Virus record (IMG/VR): IMGVR_UViG_3300046001_007659
Span: 1 to 20,708 of that record
Strand: one strand, 5' to 3'
DNA length: 20,708 bases
Source: a virus
Below are positions 3,694 to 14,425 of this stretch, in pieces. The stretch's first letter is position 1, and each line of letters opens with the position of its first letter. The notes beneath the pieces are model-generated. The model saw only the letters and a list, made by a program, of their open reading frames with translations. It made no database searches and was not told the DNA's origin. A program made the position numbers and the translations under genes.

Positions 3694-3846
3694 TTAGTTT
3701 ACCGAGTTTAATACTGCAGTATCAACATGAAGTGTATCTAATGTGGTACTTGTTGAATCAGTTAGAGATACTGATGATGTAGGTGTTGAATTATTAGAAC
3801 AAGCTGATAATGCTGCTAAAATAATGATTGCGATTGTTTTTTTCAT
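3694..3846 (-). CDS. Small lipoprotein, 50 aa
   Basis: Short gene with a textbook lipoprotein signal: MKKTIAIIILAALSAC, basic n-region, hydrophobic core and lipobox LSAC with the acylated cysteine at residue 16. The mature part (about 35 residues) is almost entirely Ser, Thr, Asp and Asn, so it is a flexible, unstructured surface tail. It would be exported by the host and anchored to a membrane. In phages such small lipoproteins can act as spanin subunits or in superinfection exclusion; the mature part here carries no domain that would decide between these. It is followed directly by a strong terminator. The start at 3844-3846 has an AT-rich leader without Shine-Dalgarno sequence. Confidence 0.8.
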   Translation of the reverse strand: MKKTIAIIILAALSACSNNSTPTSSVSLTDSTSTTLDTLHVDTAVLNSVN

Positions 3847-4992: not shown

Positions 4993-6186
4993 TTATTTTG
5001 TTATAAATTTTACTAAATCTTTGTTTAACATTAATAAATTAAATTTACTTGGATTTGCATTATAAATAGATTTTATCATTTGATAACATATATCAGTTGT
5101 AAAAATACCTTCTGTAACCATTTTACCTAATCTATCAATAATAGTTTTTTCAACTTTATTAGTTTTAGCAAACACATCTAAATAGTTAGAAACCCTAGTA
5201 CCTAATGTTGAGGCAATATCTGCTCTATAATTTTTATCTTTACCAACTAAAGACTTTAATGTGTTTAAAACATATTTTTCATCTTGTGAGAATATATGTT
5301 CTGGTGAGATAATTCTATCTAGTTTATTATTAATAAACATTGTAAATAAACTTGCAAATTCACTACCAACACTACCTTCTCCAATCATTTGAATTAATGG
5401 TAATTGTTCTTCAAATGATTTAATAGATGAAATTGAATTAAAAAACATTACTACACTACGAGCGTTTACATCTTTAGTAACTAATTCTGGATGCATCAAT
5501 AAAAAATTAATACATCTACCATCCATTTGAGACTCTTCAGCCCACTTACCCCAACATTTAAGATCAAATTTTAAATTAGCAGATATAAATCGCGTTTTTT
5601 GAGCGTTATCAATACTATTAACTAAATAATCTCCATTATCTGGATTTGAAGTTAATATAATATGCCAATCTTTAGGCAACTTCCAACTAATATATTGTTG
5701 GCGATCTATTAATTCCATTACAGCTTGAATAAATCTAACATCAGCTCTATTCCAATCATCTAATAATAAAATACCACCTTTTTTCTTATTACTAATCCAT
5801 TCAGGTGGGCAATAACTCATTCTGTTCTTACCAGTTGATTTATAACCTAATTTTAAATACTCATCAAATGCATGTTCATCTACCCATATTTTGTCTTCTT
5901 TCATTTCTACTTCAAACTGACGGATTGGAAAACCTACTAAGTCACCAATTTCTTCAATTTGAGCTAAATTTAATTTAACAAAATCTAATCCATTTTCTTC
6001 AGCTAATTGAATAATTGCTGATGTTTTACCAATTCCTGAATCACCTACTACTTCAGTTGATACAGGTGGTTTACCATTTTCTTGTAAGAAACGATTGTTC
6101 ACTACAATGTGATTTAAAAAATCTTTTAATTCGTTAACATTTAATGAAAGCGATTCTGTTTTACTACTTGTTTTACTTTTAGCCAT
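4993..6186 (-). CDS. MoxR-type AAA+ ATPase, 397 aa
   Basis: ATPase of the MoxR/dynein-like AAA+ branch. Walker A is GDSGIGKT at 48-55, Walker B is GGILLLDDWNRAD at about 137-149, sensor 1 is ILTSNPDNGDY at 177-187 and a candidate arginine finger is Arg199 in QKTRF. MoxR ATPases work as chaperone-like remodelling machines with a VWA-domain partner, and that partner is encoded immediately upstream at 6267-7526. It has its own copy of the early promoter, 46 nt before the start, in addition to any read-through from the VWA gene. The role in the phage is unknown; assembly of a metal-dependent complex or interference with a host system are both possible. Confidence 0.88.
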   Translation of the reverse strand: MAKSKTSSKTESLSLNVNELKDFLNHIVVNNRFLQENGKPPVSTEVVGDSGIGKTSAIIQLAEENGLDFVKLNLAQIEEIGDLVGFPIRQFEVEMKEDKIWVDEHAFDEYLKLGYKSTGKNRMSYCPPEWISNKKKGGILLLDDWNRADVRFIQAVMELIDRQQYISWKLPKDWHIILTSNPDNGDYLVNSIDNAQKTRFISANLKFDLKCWGKWAEESQMDGRCINFLLMHPELVTKDVNARSVVMFFNSISSIKSFEEQLPLIQMIGEGSVGSEFASLFTMFINNKLDRIISPEHIFSQDEKYVLNTLKSLVGKDKNYRADIASTLGTRVSNYLDVFAKTNKVEKTIIDRLGKMVTEGIFTTDICYQMIKSIYNANPSKFNLLMLNKDLVKFITK

Positions 6187-6266: not shown

Positions 6267-7526
6267 CTACCTTATTATTTGTACTTTTTGTCCTGGAAAA
6301 TCCGGTTTCATATCACCATCAGTAGTTATAACCCATAATATAGGTCTTACTGGTTTAGTTTCTGGTACTGGACATTCTCCATCAGTTAAGTAAATCATAT
6401 TTTGGTATTTACCTTTATTTTGATTTAAATACTTAATTACTGGCTCAAATGCTGTTCCACCTCTACCTTGAACATGTATTTTATCTTCTGTTTTACCTTT
6501 ATATTGGTAAACTCTTTGTACATCAGCATCACATTCAATCACATCTACTTCAGTACCTGTTTTATAGATATGTTGTATTTCATTAAAGAAATCAGCTAAA
6601 TCTTTATCTGAAACAGAACCTGATGTATCAATAGCTACTAAAGTGTTTTTACGTTGTTTAATTTTAAGTGCCGGATTGCCCGCAAAACGTCGATTTAACT
6701 TACGTCTAGTCTTCTTAGTATATATTTTGGTAGCCATACCATTAAAGCGTCTTAAATACGCCTTCCAATCAATTACTGGTTCTTCTATTTCATATAAACT
6801 ATTAATATATTGACCAAGTTCTCCTGGAATTATACCTCTATTTTTCTTCACTTGTTCAGCTACATCTTTTAATTGATGGTCAATTTGTTTACCAATTAAT
6901 TTCTTATCAGCTTCACTCATTTCATCAAATTCTTTCCACATTTCATGTGTACATGGAACTGTCATTTTTGATCCATCTCCTAAAGTAACAGTTATTGAAT
7001 TACCATCTCCCGAACCATCACCACTCATTCCACCCTCTAAAGCTCCTAACATAGACGCTATATCACCAAAGGGATTTTCATCAACTTCTTTTTTTAAGAG
7101 ATCATAATATACTCTAGTACCTGCTTTTAATGGTAATTTTAATTCTTTAAATGGTTTTTTATTTATTTCTAAACCATCCCATGTTTTACCTTTCCATGTA
7201 CTTTCAATATATTGATTAATCTCAATATCAGCAGCTATATTTAATAATTGTTTATTTTCAAACTCACTCATAGAAGTTAAATGATGAAATGCTATATGTA
7301 ACAATTCATGTTTCAAAATAGCTACTTTAGTGTTCTCATCTTGTTTTTCCCAAAAATTAGGATTAACCATTAATGATACATTTATGTTTTCTTTACAAAC
7401 ACAAGCAGTTTGAATACTACTATTTAGTTTTTTGTTTAGACCAATTAGGAATAAACCATAAAATGGCTCTTTAAACATTAATGTTTTAGCACATTTTGCA
7501 ATTTCTGAGTGAATATTATCTATCAT
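6267..7526 (-). CDS. Metallopeptidase-like plus VWA-domain protein, 419 aa
   Basis: Two-domain protein. The N-terminal half has the zinc-binding signature KHELLHIAFHH (HExxH at 73-77) followed by NIAADIEIN at 96-104, typical of the putative metallopeptidase domain (DUF2201-like) that precedes VWA domains. A Gly-rich linker lies at about 161-177. The C-terminal half is a von Willebrand A domain with the MIDAS motif DTSGS at 300-304, the conserved Thr in GGTAF near 358 and TDGE at 381-384. Such proteins pair with MoxR AAA+ ATPases, and one is encoded next in the same direction. It likely acts in the cytoplasm as a regulated metal-binding scaffold or protease; whether it cleaves anything is untested. 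The promoter lies 23 nt upstream and the leader ends AAATAAAAGTT. Confidence 0.87.
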   Translation of the reverse strand: MIDNIHSEIAKCAKTLMFKEPFYGLFLIGLNKKLNSSIQTACVCKENINVSLMVNPNFWEKQDENTKVAILKHELLHIAFHHLTSMSEFENKQLLNIAADIEINQYIESTWKGKTWDGLEINKKPFKELKLPLKAGTRVYYDLLKKEVDENPFGDIASMLGALEGGMSGDGSGDGNSITVTLGDGSKMTVPCTHEMWKEFDEMSEADKKLIGKQIDHQLKDVAEQVKKNRGIIPGELGQYINSLYEIEEPVIDWKAYLRRFNGMATKIYTKKTRRKLNRRFAGNPALKIKQRKNTLVAIDTSGSVSDKDLADFFNEIQHIYKTGTEVDVIECDADVQRVYQYKGKTEDKIHVQGRGGTAFEPVIKYLNQNKGKYQNMIYLTDGECPVPETKPVRPILWVITTDGDMKPDFPGQKVQIIR

Positions 7527-7588: not shown

Positions 7589-7891
7589 TTATAAACTTTC
7601 AGATAAACGTAACTTAGCGGGGATAGGAGTAGTTAAATACTGAAGTCCTATTTGTGTTGGGTTTTTTACAATATTATTAGTCATATAGTAGAACAGTGAA
7701 CCATTATGTTCTTTACAAATAGGATTGTTTTCACTATCCCATTCAACTACTCTTCGTTTACCATTCCATGAACGGAATTCTTTGGAGATTACTCTATGCC
7801 AACGTTGTGGAGATTCTAGATATATTTCTAGACTTTTTGATTCTGGAAAATCATTAATTAACTTTACTGTGAGTCCTTTCTTTTCAGCCAT
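7589..7891 (-). CDS. Hypothetical protein, 100 aa, possibly from a leaderless mRNA
   Basis: Unrecognised soluble protein. I place the start at 7891 (MAEKKGLTVKLINDFPES) because the longer frame runs through the promoter at 7895-7927 and into the opposite end of the preceding gene. The start codon is only 3 nt from the TATATTTA box, while about 22-25 nt is usual in this window, so transcription would start at or inside the gene; a leaderless or alternative start is possible. The sequence has a basic Trp-containing segment (SPQRWHRVISKEFRSWNGKR), suggestive of nucleic-acid contact, and a C-terminal hydrophobic part. It lies downstream of the M-I-K-L operon but has its own early-type promoter, so it is probably regulated differently. 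Confidence 0.65.
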   Translation of the reverse strand: MAEKKGLTVKLINDFPESKSLEIYLESPQRWHRVISKEFRSWNGKRRVVEWDSENNPICKEHNGSLFYYMTNNIVKNPTQIGLQYLTTPIPAKLRLSESL

Positions 7892-7894
7892 ACT

Positions 7895-7927
7895 TAAATA
7901 TAACATTGGCTCCCTGAGGAGCCAAAC
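7895..7927 (-). promoter_or_regulatory. Early-type promoter with a GGCTCC/GGAGCC dyad
   Basis: GTTTG, 20 bp, TATATTTA on the minus strand, 3 nt before the ATG of the 100-aa gene. The spacer contains a perfect 6-bp inverted repeat GGCTCC-(4)-GGAGCC (7908-7923). It overlaps the 3' end of the preceding 247-aa coding sequence, which stops at 7935. Confidence 0.75.
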
Positions 7928-7934
7928 TATATTT

Positions 7935-8678
7935 TTACCAAGCACGACAAGACCAATATCTTGCTTTAGTACGTGGTCCTGGATTATCACAATTCATACG
8001 CGCTCTAAAAGCTTTACGTCTTTTTGGGTTATTCTTTTTAATAACCATTCTTTTACCTTTAGCTGATGTGCCACCAAATCCAAAGTTAACTTTAACTACT
8101 TTACCTTTAGGATTTTTAACATACACTTTAAATTTCTTAACATCACCTTGCATTGGTTTGCCTAATTGAACTTTACGTCCTTGATACTCAGCTTCATTTA
8201 TTTGATTTTCATTTAATCGAGAAGAATATTCTTTCATAAACTCAATAAATTCTTTTATATCTTGTTTACTTTCCACATCATATTCATCTGCTTCAGTTAA
8301 TATATTTTTGTAGAATTCATCATTTAACCATTCACTTCCATTCTGTTTTATAGATCGTTGAAAATAAGGTAATTGTTCTAAACTTGAAACTCCATTTGGA
8401 GCCTCAGCATCATAAAATTTATTATTAAGTTTAACCCAAGAATGTCCATTAGAATCATTTGGTAAGTCATAAGACCATTGATGTTGTCCACCAAATTTCT
8501 TTACAAATAAACTGGCCCACATATCACAATAGCCATCATTAATTTCCTTAGGAGTCAATGAAGTATAATCTTCACGATATTCATTGTTAATTTTATCTAT
8601 TAATTCAGAGTTAAATTCTGAATCAATATTAACTATACTTTTATCTACTTCTAATAATATATCTATTAACTGTATCAT
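7935..8678 (-). CDS. Candidate internal-head protein: capsid-targeting N-terminus, papain-like domain, basic phage domain (247 aa)
   Basis: Three parts. Residues 1-10, MIQLIDILLE, match the operon's shared N-terminus and end in a T4 prohead-protease type site (L-L-E). Residues 45-105 look like a small papain/transglutaminase-like domain: Cys51 in NDGYCDMWASLF, His79 in NGHSWVKLNN, Asp90 in KFYDAEAPNG. A linker with two further (L/I)-x-E sites (LNE 155-157, INE near 160-162) leads to a basic domain, starting GRKVQLGKPMQGDVKKFKVY and ending NPGPRTKARYWSCRAW, which I recognise as a module that occurs alone in other T4-like phages directly after a short targeting peptide. The protein may be packaged and cut in two. 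Last gene of the six-gene cassette, 3 nt after the previous stop. Confidence 0.8.
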   Translation of the reverse strand: MIQLIDILLEVDKSIVNIDSEFNSELIDKINNEYREDYTSLTPKEINDGYCDMWASLFVKKFGGQHQWSYDLPNDSNGHSWVKLNNKFYDAEAPNGVSSLEQLPYFQRSIKQNGSEWLNDEFYKNILTEADEYDVESKQDIKEFIEFMKEYSSRLNENQINEAEYQGRKVQLGKPMQGDVKKFKVYVKNPKGKVVKVNFGFGGTSAKGKRMVIKKNNPKRRKAFRARMNCDNPGPRTKARYWSCRAW

Positions 8679-8681
8679 ACT

Positions 8682-9215
8682 TTATTTTTTGAATTTTACT
8701 TTTGCTTTTTTAGTATTAGGTACAAATTGTTTATTTGATGCTGCTTTTTTTCTTGATGTTGCAGCACGCTCAGCTTTAGTTAAACTATTTGCTTTAGCAC
8801 GAGGTAAACAACGAGTTGTTTTCTTACCTTTTTTCATTGTACCACACTCACCTGTTATATTACCTGCTGTATCAATACGAACCCAATCTTCTTTTTTAAA
8901 CCAATCACGAAGTGATTCACTTAATTCATGTTCTTGAAGTGATGTGTATGTATCACTATTATCATGTCCACATTTATGACAAATAAAAGGATCTTTACCA
9001 CCATCTTCTAAACTCCAACTCCATCCACAATTAGTACATATTATATCTTCATCATTTCCTTCCATTAATCCTTTACATACTTTAACAGCACGCCCAGAAA
9101 GATAAGCAGATGGTTTTTCACCTGCTGCTCTACGACGATCATAATAAGCTCTACCTTTTTTACAAAGTTTCTTTTCAGCTAATAGATCTAATAATATTTC
9201 AGTTAATTTAAACAT
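8682..9215 (-). CDS. Candidate internal-head protein: targeting N-terminus, zinc ribbon, lysine-rich tail (177 aa)
   Basis: Start chosen at 9215 (MFKLTEILLDLLAE) and not 24 nt upstream, since the longer form overlaps the preceding gene and hides the shared N-terminus. The (L)-x-E site is L-A-E at 12-14. Residues 17-49 form a basic module, AYYDRRRAAGEKPSAYLSGR, that I recognise from other phage proteins. Residues 60-82 form a zinc ribbon with Cys60, Cys63, Cys79 and Cys82 (CTNCGW then CHKCGH). Then comes LSE at 98-100 and a second recognisable phage module, SLRDWFKKEDWVRIDTAGNI, CLPRAKANSLTKAERAA, ending in a Lys-rich tail. DNA binding in the capsid is plausible. Several modules joined by potential protease sites make it polyprotein-like. 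Confidence 0.8.
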   Translation of the reverse strand: MFKLTEILLDLLAEKKLCKKGRAYYDRRRAAGEKPSAYLSGRAVKVCKGLMEGNDEDIICTNCGWSWSLEDGGKDPFICHKCGHDNSDTYTSLQEHELSESLRDWFKKEDWVRIDTAGNITGECGTMKKGKKTTRCLPRAKANSLTKAERAATSRKKAASNKQFVPNTKKAKVKFKK

Positions 9216-9220
9216 ATTAT

Positions 9221-9463
9221 TTATTTTATAGGTTCCCACCAGTTAGTACAATACTCATCAGCTGCGTAAGGAATTTTATCAGTTCCAGCCCAATCTATAT
9301 AATAAGTACTTAAACAAATCTGTTTTTCTTTATTCCACCATTTACAATTAGCACAACAAGAACCACCTTTAGGTACTTTTAAACCTGCTTTATGAGTGGG
9401 AGGTAAAATCATTTCACCTGGGCCACCATAATCTTCTGTTAATATATTTTGTAATTTTATCAT
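9221..9463 (-). CDS. Candidate internal-head protein with a HiPIP-like cysteine cluster (80 aa)
   Basis: Starts MIKLQNILTEDYGGPGE, with L-T-E at 8-10 as candidate prohead-protease site. The rest is a compact Cys-rich domain: GGSCCANCKWWNKEKQIC, then IPYAADEYCTNWWEP. The spacing CxxC ... C ... C with aromatic residues and the C-terminal YCTNWW resembles the small high-potential iron-sulfur-like proteins encoded by T4-like and other environmental phages; a bound metal or Fe-S cluster is likely but the identity is unproven. The start overlaps the stop of the 261-aa gene by 4 bp. If the cleavage is real, the mature product would be a 70-residue metalloprotein delivered in the head. Confidence 0.82.
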   Translation of the reverse strand: MIKLQNILTEDYGGPGEMILPPTHKAGLKVPKGGSCCANCKWWNKEKQICLSTYYIDWAGTDKIPYAADEYCTNWWEPIK

Positions 9464-10245
9464 ATAAGTTTCTTTTGAAGTTTTTTTATAGCGATTTGTA
9501 AACTTTTAACATAATCTTGTTTTTGTTTGATATTTCTATCTTTCCAACTAGGAACTATAGAATTGTAACGATCAGTTTTTTCTCTATTATAAAGTGCTTC
9601 ATCATAATCGTAATTTTTATCTGCTCCTCTTTCGATCATTTCTTCCCAAGAAGGCCATACATAATAATCTGGTTTTGATGTTACTGATTTTAGAATTTCT
9701 TCATCACTCATTTCAGAGTTTGCTTCAATTTCTTTATTTGTTTTATCTATTCTTGTTTGAAAACTTTCAATTTCTTGATTTATTTTTTCTATTTTAGATA
9801 ATTGTTTAATCTTATCTTTATAAACATTAGTAATATCTGAATTACCTGTTTTTCCTAATCTAGTCTTAGTAATATAACGATAATGTAATTCTTGAATACT
9901 ATGACCTCCAGCTAATATAGCTTCTGTTTCAAATGGATATACAGTTCCATCTCTTTCAATTTCAGCATTTATTTGAATACTTCCTTTACGAGATCTTCTT
10001 GCATTCACTGAAATAAGTTTATCAGTTGGTTTAGTATATGATTCAATTGCTTTAACCATATCTATAATAAGTCTCCATCTAAATATTTCTCTTTCATATT
10101 CAGTAACAGGTTTTTGGAACTTCTTAATATACCATTCTTCTATTTCAGCTACCATATCTTCTATAGTAGGTTTTAATTCATCTAATATAGTATCAACTAT
10201 ATTTTTATTAAGCACTTCTTTTAAAAGTATTTTAAGTTTAATCAT
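9460..10245 (-). CDS. Candidate internal-head protein, coiled-coil, 261 aa
   Basis: N-terminus MIKLKILLKEVLNKNI, with L-K-E at 8-10, as in its neighbours. No enzymatic motif. The middle has an Arg/Lys segment (NARRSRKGSIQINAEIERDG) and the block AGGHSIQELHYRYITKT. Residues about 145-180 (IKQLSKIEKINQEIESFQTR) and the C-terminus (QIAIKKLQKKLI) are strong coiled-coil candidates. It is a highly charged, helical, rod-like protein, reasonable for a packaged or scaffold-associated protein but unassigned. Overlaps both neighbours by 4 bp. Confidence 0.75.
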   Translation of the reverse strand: MIKLKILLKEVLNKNIVDTILDELKPTIEDMVAEIEEWYIKKFQKPVTEYEREIFRWRLIIDMVKAIESYTKPTDKLISVNARRSRKGSIQINAEIERDGTVYPFETEAILAGGHSIQELHYRYITKTRLGKTGNSDITNVYKDKIKQLSKIEKINQEIESFQTRIDKTNKEIEANSEMSDEEILKSVTSKPDYYVWPSWEEMIERGADKNYDYDEALYNREKTDRYNSIVPSWKDRNIKQKQDYVKSLQIAIKKLQKKLI

Positions 10246-10658
10246 TTCATTTCAATTTTACCTATTGTCTCGGGATTAATGTATTTTGGAAGAAATTGTT
10301 TATATATTCTACTACGCTTTTCGTTTGTTCCTTTAATTATAATTTTATCTATTTCTTCATCATATTGATAATAGAAATCATTAATTATATCAGCCAGTGT
10401 TTGAAGAATATTTCTAGCATCTCCTTCTCCTGTCATTTGAAATGTATCTATTTTATTAAAATTTCCTGTATCTATTCCAAATGATACTTCAAATTCTCTA
10501 GCTTTTTCTTTTGAGCTGAATACAACTTTATATTTGTTTTTTTCAGTTTTGAAAGTATATTCTACATCAATTAAACTATTATCTTCGTCATCATATGTTG
10601 TATCATATTCTGAAAATGAGTAAGAAATTTCTTTTAATATGTCTAATAATTTTATCAT
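10242..10658 (-). CDS. Candidate internal-head protein, 138 aa
   Basis: N-terminus MIKLLDILKEISYSF, with L-K-E at 8-10. The remainder is an alpha/beta protein: beta-strand rich TFKTEKNKYKVVFSSKEKAR, then MTGEGDARNILQTLADIIND, then DKIIIKGTNEKRSRIYKQFL. This order (beta sheet with a pattern of EVSFGI, a helix with ILQTLADII, then IxxIxGTxEK...RxxIYxxF) resembles a family of small proteins found in many T4-like phages; I know no function. It starts one base after the stop of the 226-aa gene and overlaps the next gene by 4 bp. Confidence 0.78.
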   Translation of the reverse strand: MIKLLDILKEISYSFSEYDTTYDDEDNSLIDVEYTFKTEKNKYKVVFSSKEKAREFEVSFGIDTGNFNKIDTFQMTGEGDARNILQTLADIINDFYYQYDEEIDKIIIKGTNEKRSRIYKQFLPKYINPETIGKIEMK

Positions 10659-10659
10659 A

Positions 10660-11340
10660 TTATATTTTTACATTTAATTTCATTTCCTCAGCATACCATT
10701 TTAAAAATGGTGCTAATTCACTATAAGTATTAACTTCAAGTAAATCTGCTTTCTTTCCTGGTCTTGGTGCGTGGAATTGCTTATTTGCTTTTATTCTTGA
10801 TGATACTACCCAACCATATAAATTTCCAAAGTGTTTAAGATCTAATAAGTAATATTGATCACAATCTACTAACACTTCTCCTACAGGTTGTGTTGGCCAA
10901 GTATTTACATATGAATCTATTATTGGTTGAACAGATTCATTCTTTTTTATTGTTTGGCTTAAATTAGCATAAATATCACTTACTTTAGGGCTCCAAACTG
11001 TTTTATATGATGGTACTGGAATCATTATAAATTCAGGTCCAAAAAATCCTTTTTTAGAGTCTTTATAAGAAGCATATACTATATGATCCATCCCAAACTT
11101 ATTAGTTAGTTCTGTAAAAGCATCTTTAATTTTAGGTTCCTGATTTAAAGCTACTCCAATCTTTCCTTTAGTCCATTCTTCAGTATCTACAAGAATTAAT
11201 CCATAATTGTTTTCAACATTAAATCCTCTTATAAGAAATTCTTTATTACCTAATGATTTACATATATTAGCAGCCTTATCAAAATCATCATTTGTAATTT
11301 TATTAAGTGCTTCTTTTAGTATGCTTATTAATTTTATCAT
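10660..11340 (-). CDS. Candidate internal-head protein, 226 aa
   Basis: N-terminus MIKLISILKEALNKITND, with L-K-E at 8-10. First gene of the six-gene M-I-K-L cassette; 4 nt after the 63-aa gene stop. Beyond the N-terminus it looks globular and mixed alpha/beta, with Lys- and aromatic-rich blocks such as FGPEFIMIPVPSYKTVWSPK and VLVDCDQYYLLDLKHFGNLY. No known fold or catalytic signature recognised. The C-terminus ends LKWYAEEMKLNVKI. Possible roles include head-packaged effector or DNA-condensing protein; this is inference from the shared N-terminus only. Confidence 0.75.
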   Translation of the reverse strand: MIKLISILKEALNKITNDDFDKAANICKSLGNKEFLIRGFNVENNYGLILVDTEEWTKGKIGVALNQEPKIKDAFTELTNKFGMDHIVYASYKDSKKGFFGPEFIMIPVPSYKTVWSPKVSDIYANLSQTIKKNESVQPIIDSYVNTWPTQPVGEVLVDCDQYYLLDLKHFGNLYGWVVSSRIKANKQFHAPRPGKKADLLEVNTYSELAPFLKWYAEEMKLNVKI

Positions 11341-11543: not shown

Positions 11544-12146
11544 TTACGCTACTAATAACGCATGAAATTCTTTAAAATGTTTAATACGATCAGGTAAACC
11601 AATAGTACCACCGTTAACTCGTTTAGTTATAGCGGTTACATCAGCATCTGTAGCGCCTTTATCAGCTAATGCATTTAAGCCGTTTTTAGAGAAAAACCAA
11701 GCAGCAGACAATAAAGGATATTTAGTTGCTACTAATTCCGGTGTTTCAAGTAAATTTTCAGTTACTGACTTATCAAATTCAGTGTAATTAGCTTTACCAG
11801 TTAATTGAATATAACCACGACCACGGAATTTATATCCTTCACCTGATGTTTCAGGACCATTACCCATACGAGATGCATAAACTAAATTAGCAATTTTCTC
11901 AGGTTTACGTTCATATAAAGCAGCTTTCTCATCTGTAGGAAAGTACTTACCAAATATACCACGTAAGCCTTTAGCTCCATAGTTTAAATTTTCATTAACT
12001 GCTTTAAAGCCTCCACTTTCATGACCACATTGGGCTAAAAAATGAGCTAAACGTAAAGGAGTGTTGATGTTGAACTTTGCCATAACATCAGGAATTTGAG
12101 CTATAACAGCGTCAGGGATGTGTGTTTTTAATTTATCTAAATTCAT
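11544..12146 (-). CDS. GH19 chitinase-like endolysin, 200 aa
   Basis: Glycoside hydrolase family 19 domain covering the whole protein. Key parts: LAHFLAQCGHESGGFKAVNE at about 33-52 with catalytic Glu43 in HES, ENLNYGAKGLRGIFGKYFP at 52-70, YASRMGNG at 90-97 and GEGYKFRGRGYIQLTGKANY at 102-121. In phages this family cleaves the glycan strand of peptidoglycan. There is no signal peptide or membrane anchor, so release needs a holin or another route, and none is obvious nearby. It is the first gene of the unit that continues into the 63-aa gene and the M-I-K-L cassette. The leader has an ATATTTAT box at 12161-12168 but no TTTG element. Co-expression with candidate virion proteins means a virion-associated role is also possible. 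Confidence 0.92.
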   Translation of the reverse strand: MNLDKLKTHIPDAVIAQIPDVMAKFNINTPLRLAHFLAQCGHESGGFKAVNENLNYGAKGLRGIFGKYFPTDEKAALYERKPEKIANLVYASRMGNGPETSGEGYKFRGRGYIQLTGKANYTEFDKSVTENLLETPELVATKYPLLSAAWFFSKNGLNALADKGATDADVTAITKRVNGGTIGLPDRIKHFKEFHALLVA

Positions 12147-12160
12147 AAATTGATTTTGTT

Positions 12161-12168
12161 ATAAATAT
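12161..12168 (-). promoter_or_regulatory. Candidate late promoter -10 box before the endolysin
   Basis: ATATTTAT on the minus strand, 14 nt before the start, with no TTTG at the early-promoter distance. Further upstream the non-coding stretch 12169-12284 holds two TATATTTG sequences (12233-12240, 12266-12273) and a small stem ATGTAG/CTACAT (12194-12199 with 12206-12211). Confidence 0.3.
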
Positions 12169-12284
12169 TAGAAAAACAGGAAAAATTCATTTAATGTAGC
12201 TACTCCTACATACATCCCTTAATACAGATATACAAATATATTTAAATAAGTGTATTTAATTATTACAAATATACTCCCCTAGTA

Positions 12285-14161: not shown

Positions 14162-14425
14162 TTAGTGTTCTACTATTAGTATTTGTCCCTGTAATATCCC
14201 ATAACTGGATTTCTCAGTGAATACATAAGTGGTAGGTGCCGTTGTGTCTTGTTTTGTTAACACCCATAGGCTCGGTGATTCATTACCCTTCCATGTTACA
14301 TTCACTAAACGTGTTCCAGTAGCTAAATCGATGGTTTCAGTTCCACCCCAGTTACGGGCTCGTTGATTCGGTGTACAGCTGGCTAATAGTGCTACTGCTG
14401 ATATTGATATTATTAGTTTCTTCAT
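14162..14425 (-). CDS. Phage lipoprotein, 87 aa
   Basis: Signal sequence MKKLIISISAVALLASC with lipobox LASC (Cys17). The mature part starts TPNQRARNWGGTETIDLATG and continues LVNVTWKGNESPSLWVLTKQ, YVFTEKSSYGILQGQI. I recognise this order (N-x-x-A-R-x-W-G-G-T-x-T-I-x-L, then V-N-V-T-W, then F-x-E-K-S-x-x-G) as a lipoprotein family common in T4-like and other phages; its role is not established, with receptor blocking or superinfection exclusion the usual guesses. It begins 5 nt after the stop of the 78-aa gene and shares its promoter. A downstream promoter for the next gene lies immediately before its stop. Confidence 0.85.
   Translation of the reverse strand: MKKLIISISAVALLASCTPNQRARNWGGTETIDLATGTRLVNVTWKGNESPSLWVLTKQDTTAPTTYVFTEKSSYGILQGQILIVEH

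Follow-up and report, generated by a model that had tools for sequence, protein, structure and literature searches.

The virus record IMGVR_UViG_3300046001_007659 of IMG/VR, a DNA of 20,708 bases and 28% G+C that was analysed over its whole length and is called the window below, is judged by its content to be a piece of a larger phage. On its minus strand (7935-11340) lie six adjoining genes, here named p1 to p6, whose products all open with the peptide M-(I/F)-(K/Q)-L-x-x-(I/L)-L-x-(E/D). Very probably these six N-terminal decapeptides are capsid targeting sequences of the T4 type, the proteins being docked in the prohead core, cut by a gp21-type protease of the S77 family and ejected into the host. 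By analogy with T4, whose internal proteins are the textbook example of proteins injected with phage DNA, the run most likely encodes a kit of virion-carried proteins delivered with the DNA into the bacterium. The initial annotation of this DNA had claimed packaged, protease-trimmed cargo; this claim gained support from the register of the T4 targeting sequence, from S77 proteases in related phages and from pattern matches in T4 and in the cyanophage S-CREM2, and from these we infer the protease of this phage, the packaging, cleavage and injection of the six proteins and any effect on the host.

The six-gene run and its shared start

The run is flanked on one side by an endolysin gene (11544-12146), after which one open reading frame (ORF) of 63 amino acids follows, and on the other by a metallopeptidase/VWA gene (6267-7526). 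Its genes are separated by gaps of 1-5 nucleotides or, in two cases, overlap by 4 nucleotides, and because of this spacing they look like one transcription unit. From the high-numbered end they encode p6 (10660-11340; 226 amino acids, no family) with the tag MIKLISILKE at 11311-11340; p5 (10242-10658; 138 amino acids, DUF6934) with MIKLLDILKE at 10629-10658; p4 (9460-10245; 261 amino acids, no family above the cut-off) with MIKLKILLKE at 10216-10245; p3 (9221-9463; 80 amino acids, five Cys and the motif KGGSCCANC) with MIKLQNILTE at 9434-9463; p2 (8682-9215) with a 14-residue tag, MFKLTEILLDLLAE, at 9174-9215 that has D at position 10; and p1 (7935-8678; a papain-like C/H/D module and a basic C-terminal module) with MIQLIDILLE at 8649-8678. 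The start of p2 is an ATG at 9215 within a GTG-started ORF that reaches 9239. All six ORFs for which a shared N-terminal peptide had been claimed are thus present on the minus strand with the claimed starts and spacing, and the claim that the peptide ends in (L)-x-E at residue 10, or 14 in one case, is correct. DNA near-identical to the window was not found among isolated phages. A further ORF (7589-7990) runs into the 3' end of p1 in a different reading frame; since it resembles locus L002 (9398-9700) by eye, the real gene probably begins at an internal ATG downstream of p1.

For counting, the shared start was written as the strict pattern M..[LFIMV]..[LIVFM][LIVFM].E, a widened form of which admits Y or W at position 4; looser, broad patterns separated starts from internal Met poorly and were excluded from the counts. 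The strict pattern fits five of the six proteins, the exception being p2. Hydrophobic residues stand at positions 4 (L), 7 (I/L) and 8 (L) in all six and E at position 10 in five, the D10 tag having an extra E at 14. The pattern occurred at 5 of the window's 61 candidate starts and at none of its 95 internal Met; when the window is pooled with four related genomes, 7 of 3012 internal Met fit it, and at this rate the probability of at least 5 of 61 is 3.6e-7. In four relatives carrying S77 it was found at 27 of 1406 candidate starts (4/382, 7/387, 11/387 and 5/250) versus 7 of 2917 internal Met. The 193 distinct pattern-positive proteins among the loci collected at that stage, which take in chance matches and many loci of undetermined protease status, form 60 sequence clusters, and 100 of them begin with MIKL. 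At P2, which is free in the pattern, N or K is present in 120 of these 193 tags versus 54 of 170 internal PhiPhi.E segments (p = 6e-9).

The run proteins have unrelated bodies, the best non-self BLASTP match having E = 0.15. The conserved Ile is encoded by ATA or ATT and the conserved Leu by TTA, CTT or CTA, and the upstream sequences are without match; because the codons vary, it is the peptide and not the DNA that is conserved.

The register of the T4 targeting sequence

Work on IPIII of T4 with amber suppressors indicated that targeting depends mainly on residues 4 and 7 and processing on residues 8 and 10, D at position 10 blocking processing (PMC9026906). These targeting and processing positions are the conserved positions of the window tags. 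Among the 278 annotated starts of T4 the pattern with Y or W allowed at position 4 fits five, those of ipII, ipIII, alt, gp24 and 61.1, the first four of which are known packaged or processed head proteins (PMC9026906); ipI, which has a different start, was missed. Two matches at unannotated starts had been dropped, after which all 278 annotated starts were rechecked. The uncharacterised gene 61.1 (NC_000866, 18966-19130) opens with MKTFKEFIKE and, by this start, is a candidate for an unrecognised internal protein. In T4, ipII and ipIII adjoin the lysozyme gene e, and the window run likewise adjoins an endolysin gene.

In the mechanism that we propose, residues 4 and 7 would dock each protein in the prohead core. 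Once the shell has formed, the gp21-type S77 protease would cut after E10, or after E14 in p2, with a further cut in p1 after E162, and the mature proteins would stay in the head, packed with the DNA, until they are ejected into the host at infection. Delivery to the host and a counter-defence purpose would follow from the parallel with T4, whose Ip1 to Ip3 block GmrSD restriction enzymes, each of them a different one (PMC12373910).

The protease and the relatives of the window

Searches with two of the window proteins yielded 37 loci in contigs of uncultured viruses, of which eight lie on contigs 100-436 kb long. The initial annotation had named a genome without a gp21-like protease as the finding that would speak against it. 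On this point the relatives are informative, the S77 family being present in 8 of the 17 larger records with related genes (those of L003, L007, L009, L010, L014, L015, L016 and L026); the window itself is a 20.7-kb fragment without head genes. In one of the related genomes (G003) a single gene, at the scaffold position, separates a head maturation protease (phrog_207) from a major head protein (phrog_138). The motifs GEL(D/N)HP and SSRG, which we take to be the catalytic regions of the gp21-type protease, are invariant across T4 gp21 and five relatives. Near residue 60 of gp23 three relatives have LIVE, LVTE or LVME, and T4 gp23 has FLTE at 65.

Judged by the head protein, Flavobacterium phage immuto is the nearest isolate (63.6% identical over 72% of the query), and the window phage may be supposed to infect a Flavobacterium-like host. 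Tag-bearing genes of immuto are gp231 (MIKLIDLLTE; by eye like p5), gp093 (MISIYNILKE) and gp083 (..RMQKLAGIITE). The strict pattern fits 4 of the 236 coding sequences (CDS) examined, CDS cut by stretch borders being left out. Immuto (L100-L103) has further tag-like starts, some of them like MKK(S/F)xLxxLIKEE and others, at gp092, gp077 and gp076, of the form F(D/N)L(K/R)xFL(V/T)ENKLTxN(S/A)... The main text of a paper on Baltic flavophages (PMC7077304) mentions neither immuto nor mass spectrometry (MS).

Published virion proteomes

In the cyanophage S-CREM2 the pattern, fixed beforehand, was present in 5 of the 52 virion proteins detected by MS (Table 3 of PMC10665884) versus none of the 166 others (Fisher p = 6.6e-4); 218 of the 219 CDS were covered, one of 81 nucleotides (gp62) having been dropped, and the counts are unchanged with the narrow pattern. 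Two of the five matches are hypothetical proteins; the others are the SAM hydrolase, the kinase and the cytidylyltransferase. The Cas9-like virion protein of S-CREM2 has RFASFMAE↓A at residues 18-26 (here and below the arrow follows the E of a predicted site).

Predicted processing sites inside polyproteins

Some modules that are single tagged genes in the window are parts of polyproteins of up to 1378 amino acids in other phages, which is new. Homologues of p5 are of two kinds, stand-alone proteins beginning with MIKLxx(I/L)L(K/N)E and segments of ORFs of 436-1378 amino acids. In the long ORFs [LIV]xE is found at the start of the p5 module in 15 of 15 tested (chance 0.19-0.36 each; L204, a near-copy of L205, is excluded), with several different neighbours on the upstream side. 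Likewise the papain-like part of p1 recurs in polyprotein L206, and the zinc-ribbon part of p2 in L208, L209, L212, L217 and L219. Over all tagged modules inside ORFs of at least 400 amino acids (L/I/V)xE is present at 57 of 79 boundaries versus 20.8 expected, and in a looser, more redundant test at 165 of 183 versus 72 expected. P2 at the boundaries is N or K in 34 of 58 versus 149 of 383 other [LIV]xE of the same proteins (p = 0.006).

A predicted site lies also within p1, where the basic C-terminal module (7938-8192, minus strand; phrog_7595-like, E = 9.2e-10) directly follows QINE↓AEYQG. Directly before this module [ILMV]xE is present in all 57 distinct homologues, drawn from the best 80 of 590 relatives and others, in a search that did not require the P3 residue; L139, L175 and L181 were dropped from an alignment made for p1. 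In 56 of them the E is immediately followed by (A/G/S/V)E(Y/F)xG, the P3 residue always being I (17), L (16), M (12) or V (11), and the 57th reads LLE↓AKYQGR. Kinship among the sequences makes the counts at polyprotein boundaries and at the p1 site less independent than they appear. Two loci of one record (L066 and L067 of G007) have MR(V/I)N directly after the E of the tag (LNE↓MRVNEP and LKE↓MRVNPP), as has a junction in L015 (SE↓MRVNKP); this looks like a lineage-specific prime-side motif.

Segments of nucleotidyltransferase-like (GGFKPPTKGH), HAD-like, HExxH and YHxT type are recognisable by eye in the polyproteins. In Pfam searches at E 0.01 only DUF6934 was above its cut-off, in three of them, and the matches in PHROGs were to polynucleotide-kinase and cytidyltransferase families.

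The putative cargo proteins

Among the six only p5 passes a Pfam cut-off (PF22028, E = 2.4e-9), the match beginning at residue 32, past the tag. The one relative found of p6 (L221) opens with MIKLKPLLEK, and three relatives of p4 (L222-L224) open with MIKLRSLLKE, MIKLKTLLKE and MIKLINILKE. The tagged genes of relatives include one for a zeta-toxin-like kinase (PF06414). As to the cargo types proposed in the initial annotation, p1 has the C/H/D motif of a papain-like protein, on which the assignment rests, and the zinc ribbon of p2 is plausible, with a match that, like that of its DUF5872-like tail, lies under the Pfam cut-off. The Fe-S-like guess for p3 found no support: p3 was tried as a HiPIP-like iron-sulfur protein and this was rejected (best PDB sequence E = 0.93, a mean predicted local distance difference test score of 66.7 in AlphaFold, no match in Foldseek or VIA).

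Homologues of p3 were found at 35 distinct loci, whereas a search of the phage collection with p3 at E 0.01 gave none. In those of L003-L030 the leaders vary (MIKLQNILTE, MKLKDLLVTE, MKLKPLLE, MKQFNITNYLIQQQLKE), and the E is kept just before a body that begins with (N/D/E/S)(Y/F)GG or YGG. Seven homologues are distant; two of these (L036, L037) start at the body without a leader and the rest are in longer frames or have another leader. On a contig of 436 kb from a giant phage the homologue (L035:10001-10210) stands behind a different leader, MSLAKRVAARYLHIL.., possibly another class of targeting sequence.

A second tag and the tail of the scaffold protein

In six records with S77 (G003-G008) and in immuto the protein in the place of the scaffold, so named by gene position since no family matched, ends with R(M/W)QKLA(G/N)I plus 0-2 residues, I or K; the set comprises records with the gene complete to its end, G009 and G015 lying outside. 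The motif (R/K)(M/W/F)QKLAG(I/L) was found 10 times at an N-terminus, where it begins cargo proteins and has an E within a few residues each time, 5 times at a C-terminus and once internally. Three S77-less records, T4 and two cyanophages, whose stretches served as control, did not contain it, so it is a trait of this lineage and is not general among S77 phages. MQKLAGIITE and MIKLxxILxE agree at positions 1, 3, 4, 7 and 10 and in a hydrophobic residue at 8, by which the cargo may imitate the docking segment of the scaffold.

A wider proposal, which we hold to be evenly balanced between right and wrong, is that this T4-like group uses the prohead-protease site as a general code for cutting up a modular arsenal of packaged proteins and that the targeting tag mimics the scaffold protein. 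Modules would occur as tagged genes or as polyproteins with (L/I/V)xE in between, so that many enzymes could be carried as one chain, which gp21 would dice within the prohead. Since RMQKLAGI is at once the C-terminus of the scaffold and, with an E after it, an N-terminus found on cargo, and since its register is that of M-I-K-L-x-x-I-L-x-E, the cargo would dock where the scaffold tail docks.

Weighing of the evidence

Several results weigh against packaged and processed cargo. Nine of the 17 larger records that carry related genes yielded no S77, and neither did the window and its two nearest relatives, G001 and G002, all three of which are fragments. The records without it include those of L031, L032, L034, L035 and L036 (L033 and L037 were outside the search); such misses are weak evidence, because the S77 family matched none of 14 control genomes. 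The pattern was found at 4 of 943 starts in three records without S77 versus 27 of 1406 in the S77 genomes (p = 0.001), a weak contrast since the former have 47-59% G+C and the latter 28-31%; because of this confounding the internal Met are preferred as control. The residue at P2 of the gp23 sites is V, T or M and not N or K, the site is missing at 22 of 79 module boundaries, p2 carries D10, the very residue that blocks processing in IPIII, and two of the four immuto matches (MSVVDKIVIE and MAKFTYFIRE) are probably due to chance. In T4 the narrow pattern without Y at position 4 fits 3 of 278 starts (61.1, alt and gp24) and misses ipII and ipIII, which are not independent finds because Y was added knowing the T4 tag; the share of packaged or processed proteins is 4 of 5 matches with Y allowed and 2 of 3 without. 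Also the tag register does not fix the cut site, because Alt is reportedly cut after about 7 residues and not at E10 (PMC9026906).

The proteome of S-SZBM1, taken as a replicate of S-CREM2, likewise gives no support to packaging: the pattern is present in none of the 30 detected proteins (Table 1 of PMC9146016), a shallower list than that of S-CREM2, versus 3 of 188 undetected ones. The detected cytidylyltransferase opens with MRFRQFIIEA, a near miss. Undetected are the tag-like ORF191 (MKSFKSFLSE) and ORF192 (MKTFKQYITE; this one misses the pattern), and a match in the recombinase (MSFLNDVVKE) is judged to be due to chance. Pooled, the two phages give 5 of 82 detected versus 3 of 354 undetected proteins (p = 0.007), where undetected does not equal absent. 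The proteome support for the tag is real, but it rests on one phage.

The peptide could be a virion docking tag without processing, or could dock the cargo elsewhere, to tail, portal or membrane. Cleavage is deduced from sites, and the low end of the window matches, by eye, genes beside the baseplate genes of immuto. We nevertheless find this improbable, since E10 and the hydrophobic residue at 8, which matter for processing in T4, are kept and since [LIV]xE is found again at the joints of fused modules, places that have no need of an N-terminal tag. Less probable still is that the tag is used with a protease other than S77, either from the host or from the cargo itself as proposed for polyvalent proteins. 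The papain-like module of p1 and the HExxH segments seen by eye in several polyproteins would suit such a protease; against it the relatives carry S77 with its conserved motifs, and the tag and the gp23 sites agree at P3 and P1.

A constraint on the first 30 nucleotides, acting on translation initiation or regulation, would make the shared start something other than a protein signal. Sequence near the start could matter because Bacteroidota lack Shine-Dalgarno sites (PMC6847099), and yet the synonymous codons vary, the upstream sequences differ, the start is not common to other genes of the window and the p3 leaders change in sequence and length with the final E kept; such a constraint is very unlikely. 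Recent duplications sharing an N-terminus hardly come into question, the bodies being unrelated, and hardly more does chance, which coding at 28% G+C would help by favouring I, K and L, and against which stand the probability calculated from internal Met and the spread of the pattern-positive proteins over 60 clusters.

Neighbouring genes and promoters

The endolysin gene just upstream of the run (11544-12146, minus strand) is GH19-like (phrog_181, E = 1.1e-70; PF00182, E = 1.7e-7). Upstream of it, and ahead of the run, the minus strand has the late-promoter-like sequence TAATATTTAT (12161-12170), a candidate promoter of the run. In four relatives TATTTAT is present at most 50 nucleotides upstream of 12 of 29 tagged genes versus 150 of 853 other ORFs (p = 0.003). 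For immuto the counts within 60 nucleotides upstream are 23 of 80 CDS from the region taken as late versus 11 of 156 others, a few minus-strand CDS having been scored on the wrong side. Between 13834 and 19491, also on the minus strand, GATGTTATATTTA is repeated before many small genes, at times after TTGGCTTA; it is probably an early promoter family distinct from the late-like TAATATTTAT.

The gene at 6267-7526, which adjoins an ATPase gene (4993-6186, phrog_1297), is called an HNH endonuclease by phrog_1314, whereas Pfam shows a DUF2201 metallopeptidase with VWA (PF13203, PF09967); the former name looks wrong and recurs in phage records. Two short ORFs, at 3694-3846 and 14162-14425, are lipoprotein-like (MKKTIAIIILAALSACSNN and MKKLIISISAVALLASCTPN).

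Relation to known systems and significance

The window proteins resemble IPI-III, Alt and gp24 of T4 in that unrelated proteins have a common start of about 10 residues with hydrophobic residues at 4, 7 and 8 and E at 10, in the S77 protease of the relatives, and in the place of tagged genes beside a gene for endolysin or lysozyme. They differ from them in the letters of the tag (M-I-K-L-x-x-I-L-x-E versus MKTYQEFIAE), in standing six in a row with other cargos, in further tag types and in the fusion of modules to polyproteins in relatives; processing, known in T4, is predicted here. A likeness exists also to the non-structural virion proteins of T4-like cyanophages. The S-CREM2 starts MKDFDSFLEE, MKRFDAFLTE and MKNFSSFLTE fit the pattern, and the set, a SAM hydrolase, an APH/ChoK-like kinase and a cytidylyltransferase, has a counterpart in the nucleotidyltransferase-like modules that, by eye, begin some polyproteins. 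Unlike the window proteins, known from genes alone, those of S-CREM2 were detected by MS in purified virions (PMC10665884), a paper in which the parts covered do not mention a targeting sequence.

In the giant phages phiKZ and SPN3US a diverged gp21-type protease cuts head proteins after x-x-E, and diverged proteins have identical N-termini, but most propeptides are long (several of more than 100 residues) and the sites are A-x-E or S/A/G-x-E (PMC5694885). Polyvalent proteins also combine many disparate effector domains per polypeptide and are predicted to be delivered with DNA. Their own protease domains are proposed to process them (PMC5512222), whereas the polyproteins of the relatives have sites of the prohead-protease type between modules. 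The window has single cargos, with two modules in p1, and multiple disparate domains per polypeptide are found in the relatives.

Already in T-even phages ip genes had been found by their leader (PMC12373910). The literature with the phrase "capsid targeting sequence" deals, by title, with T4, SPN3US, P1, P22, T4-based vectors, viral counter-defence and head assembly. No earlier description of the tag letters, the six-gene run, the two-form modules or the scaffold-tail likeness was found in the literature covered, mostly outside subscription journals. The tag system is thus a variant of the T4 capsid-targeting system not met before in the literature searched.

The likeness to the scaffold tail provides a concrete hypothesis for the binding partner of the capsid targeting sequence, and modules occurring both as tagged genes and as polyprotein segments define module borders for expression. 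If the interpretation is true, it helps to explain why cytidylyltransferases and kinases recur in the virion proteomes of cyanophages (PMC10665884). If the tag works, the virion cargo of a large, mostly uncultured phage group would be readable straight from sequence, and the candidate injected effectors would include the zeta-toxin-like kinase and, recognised by eye only, nucleotidyltransferase-, HAD-, metalloprotease- and ADP-ribosyltransferase-like modules.

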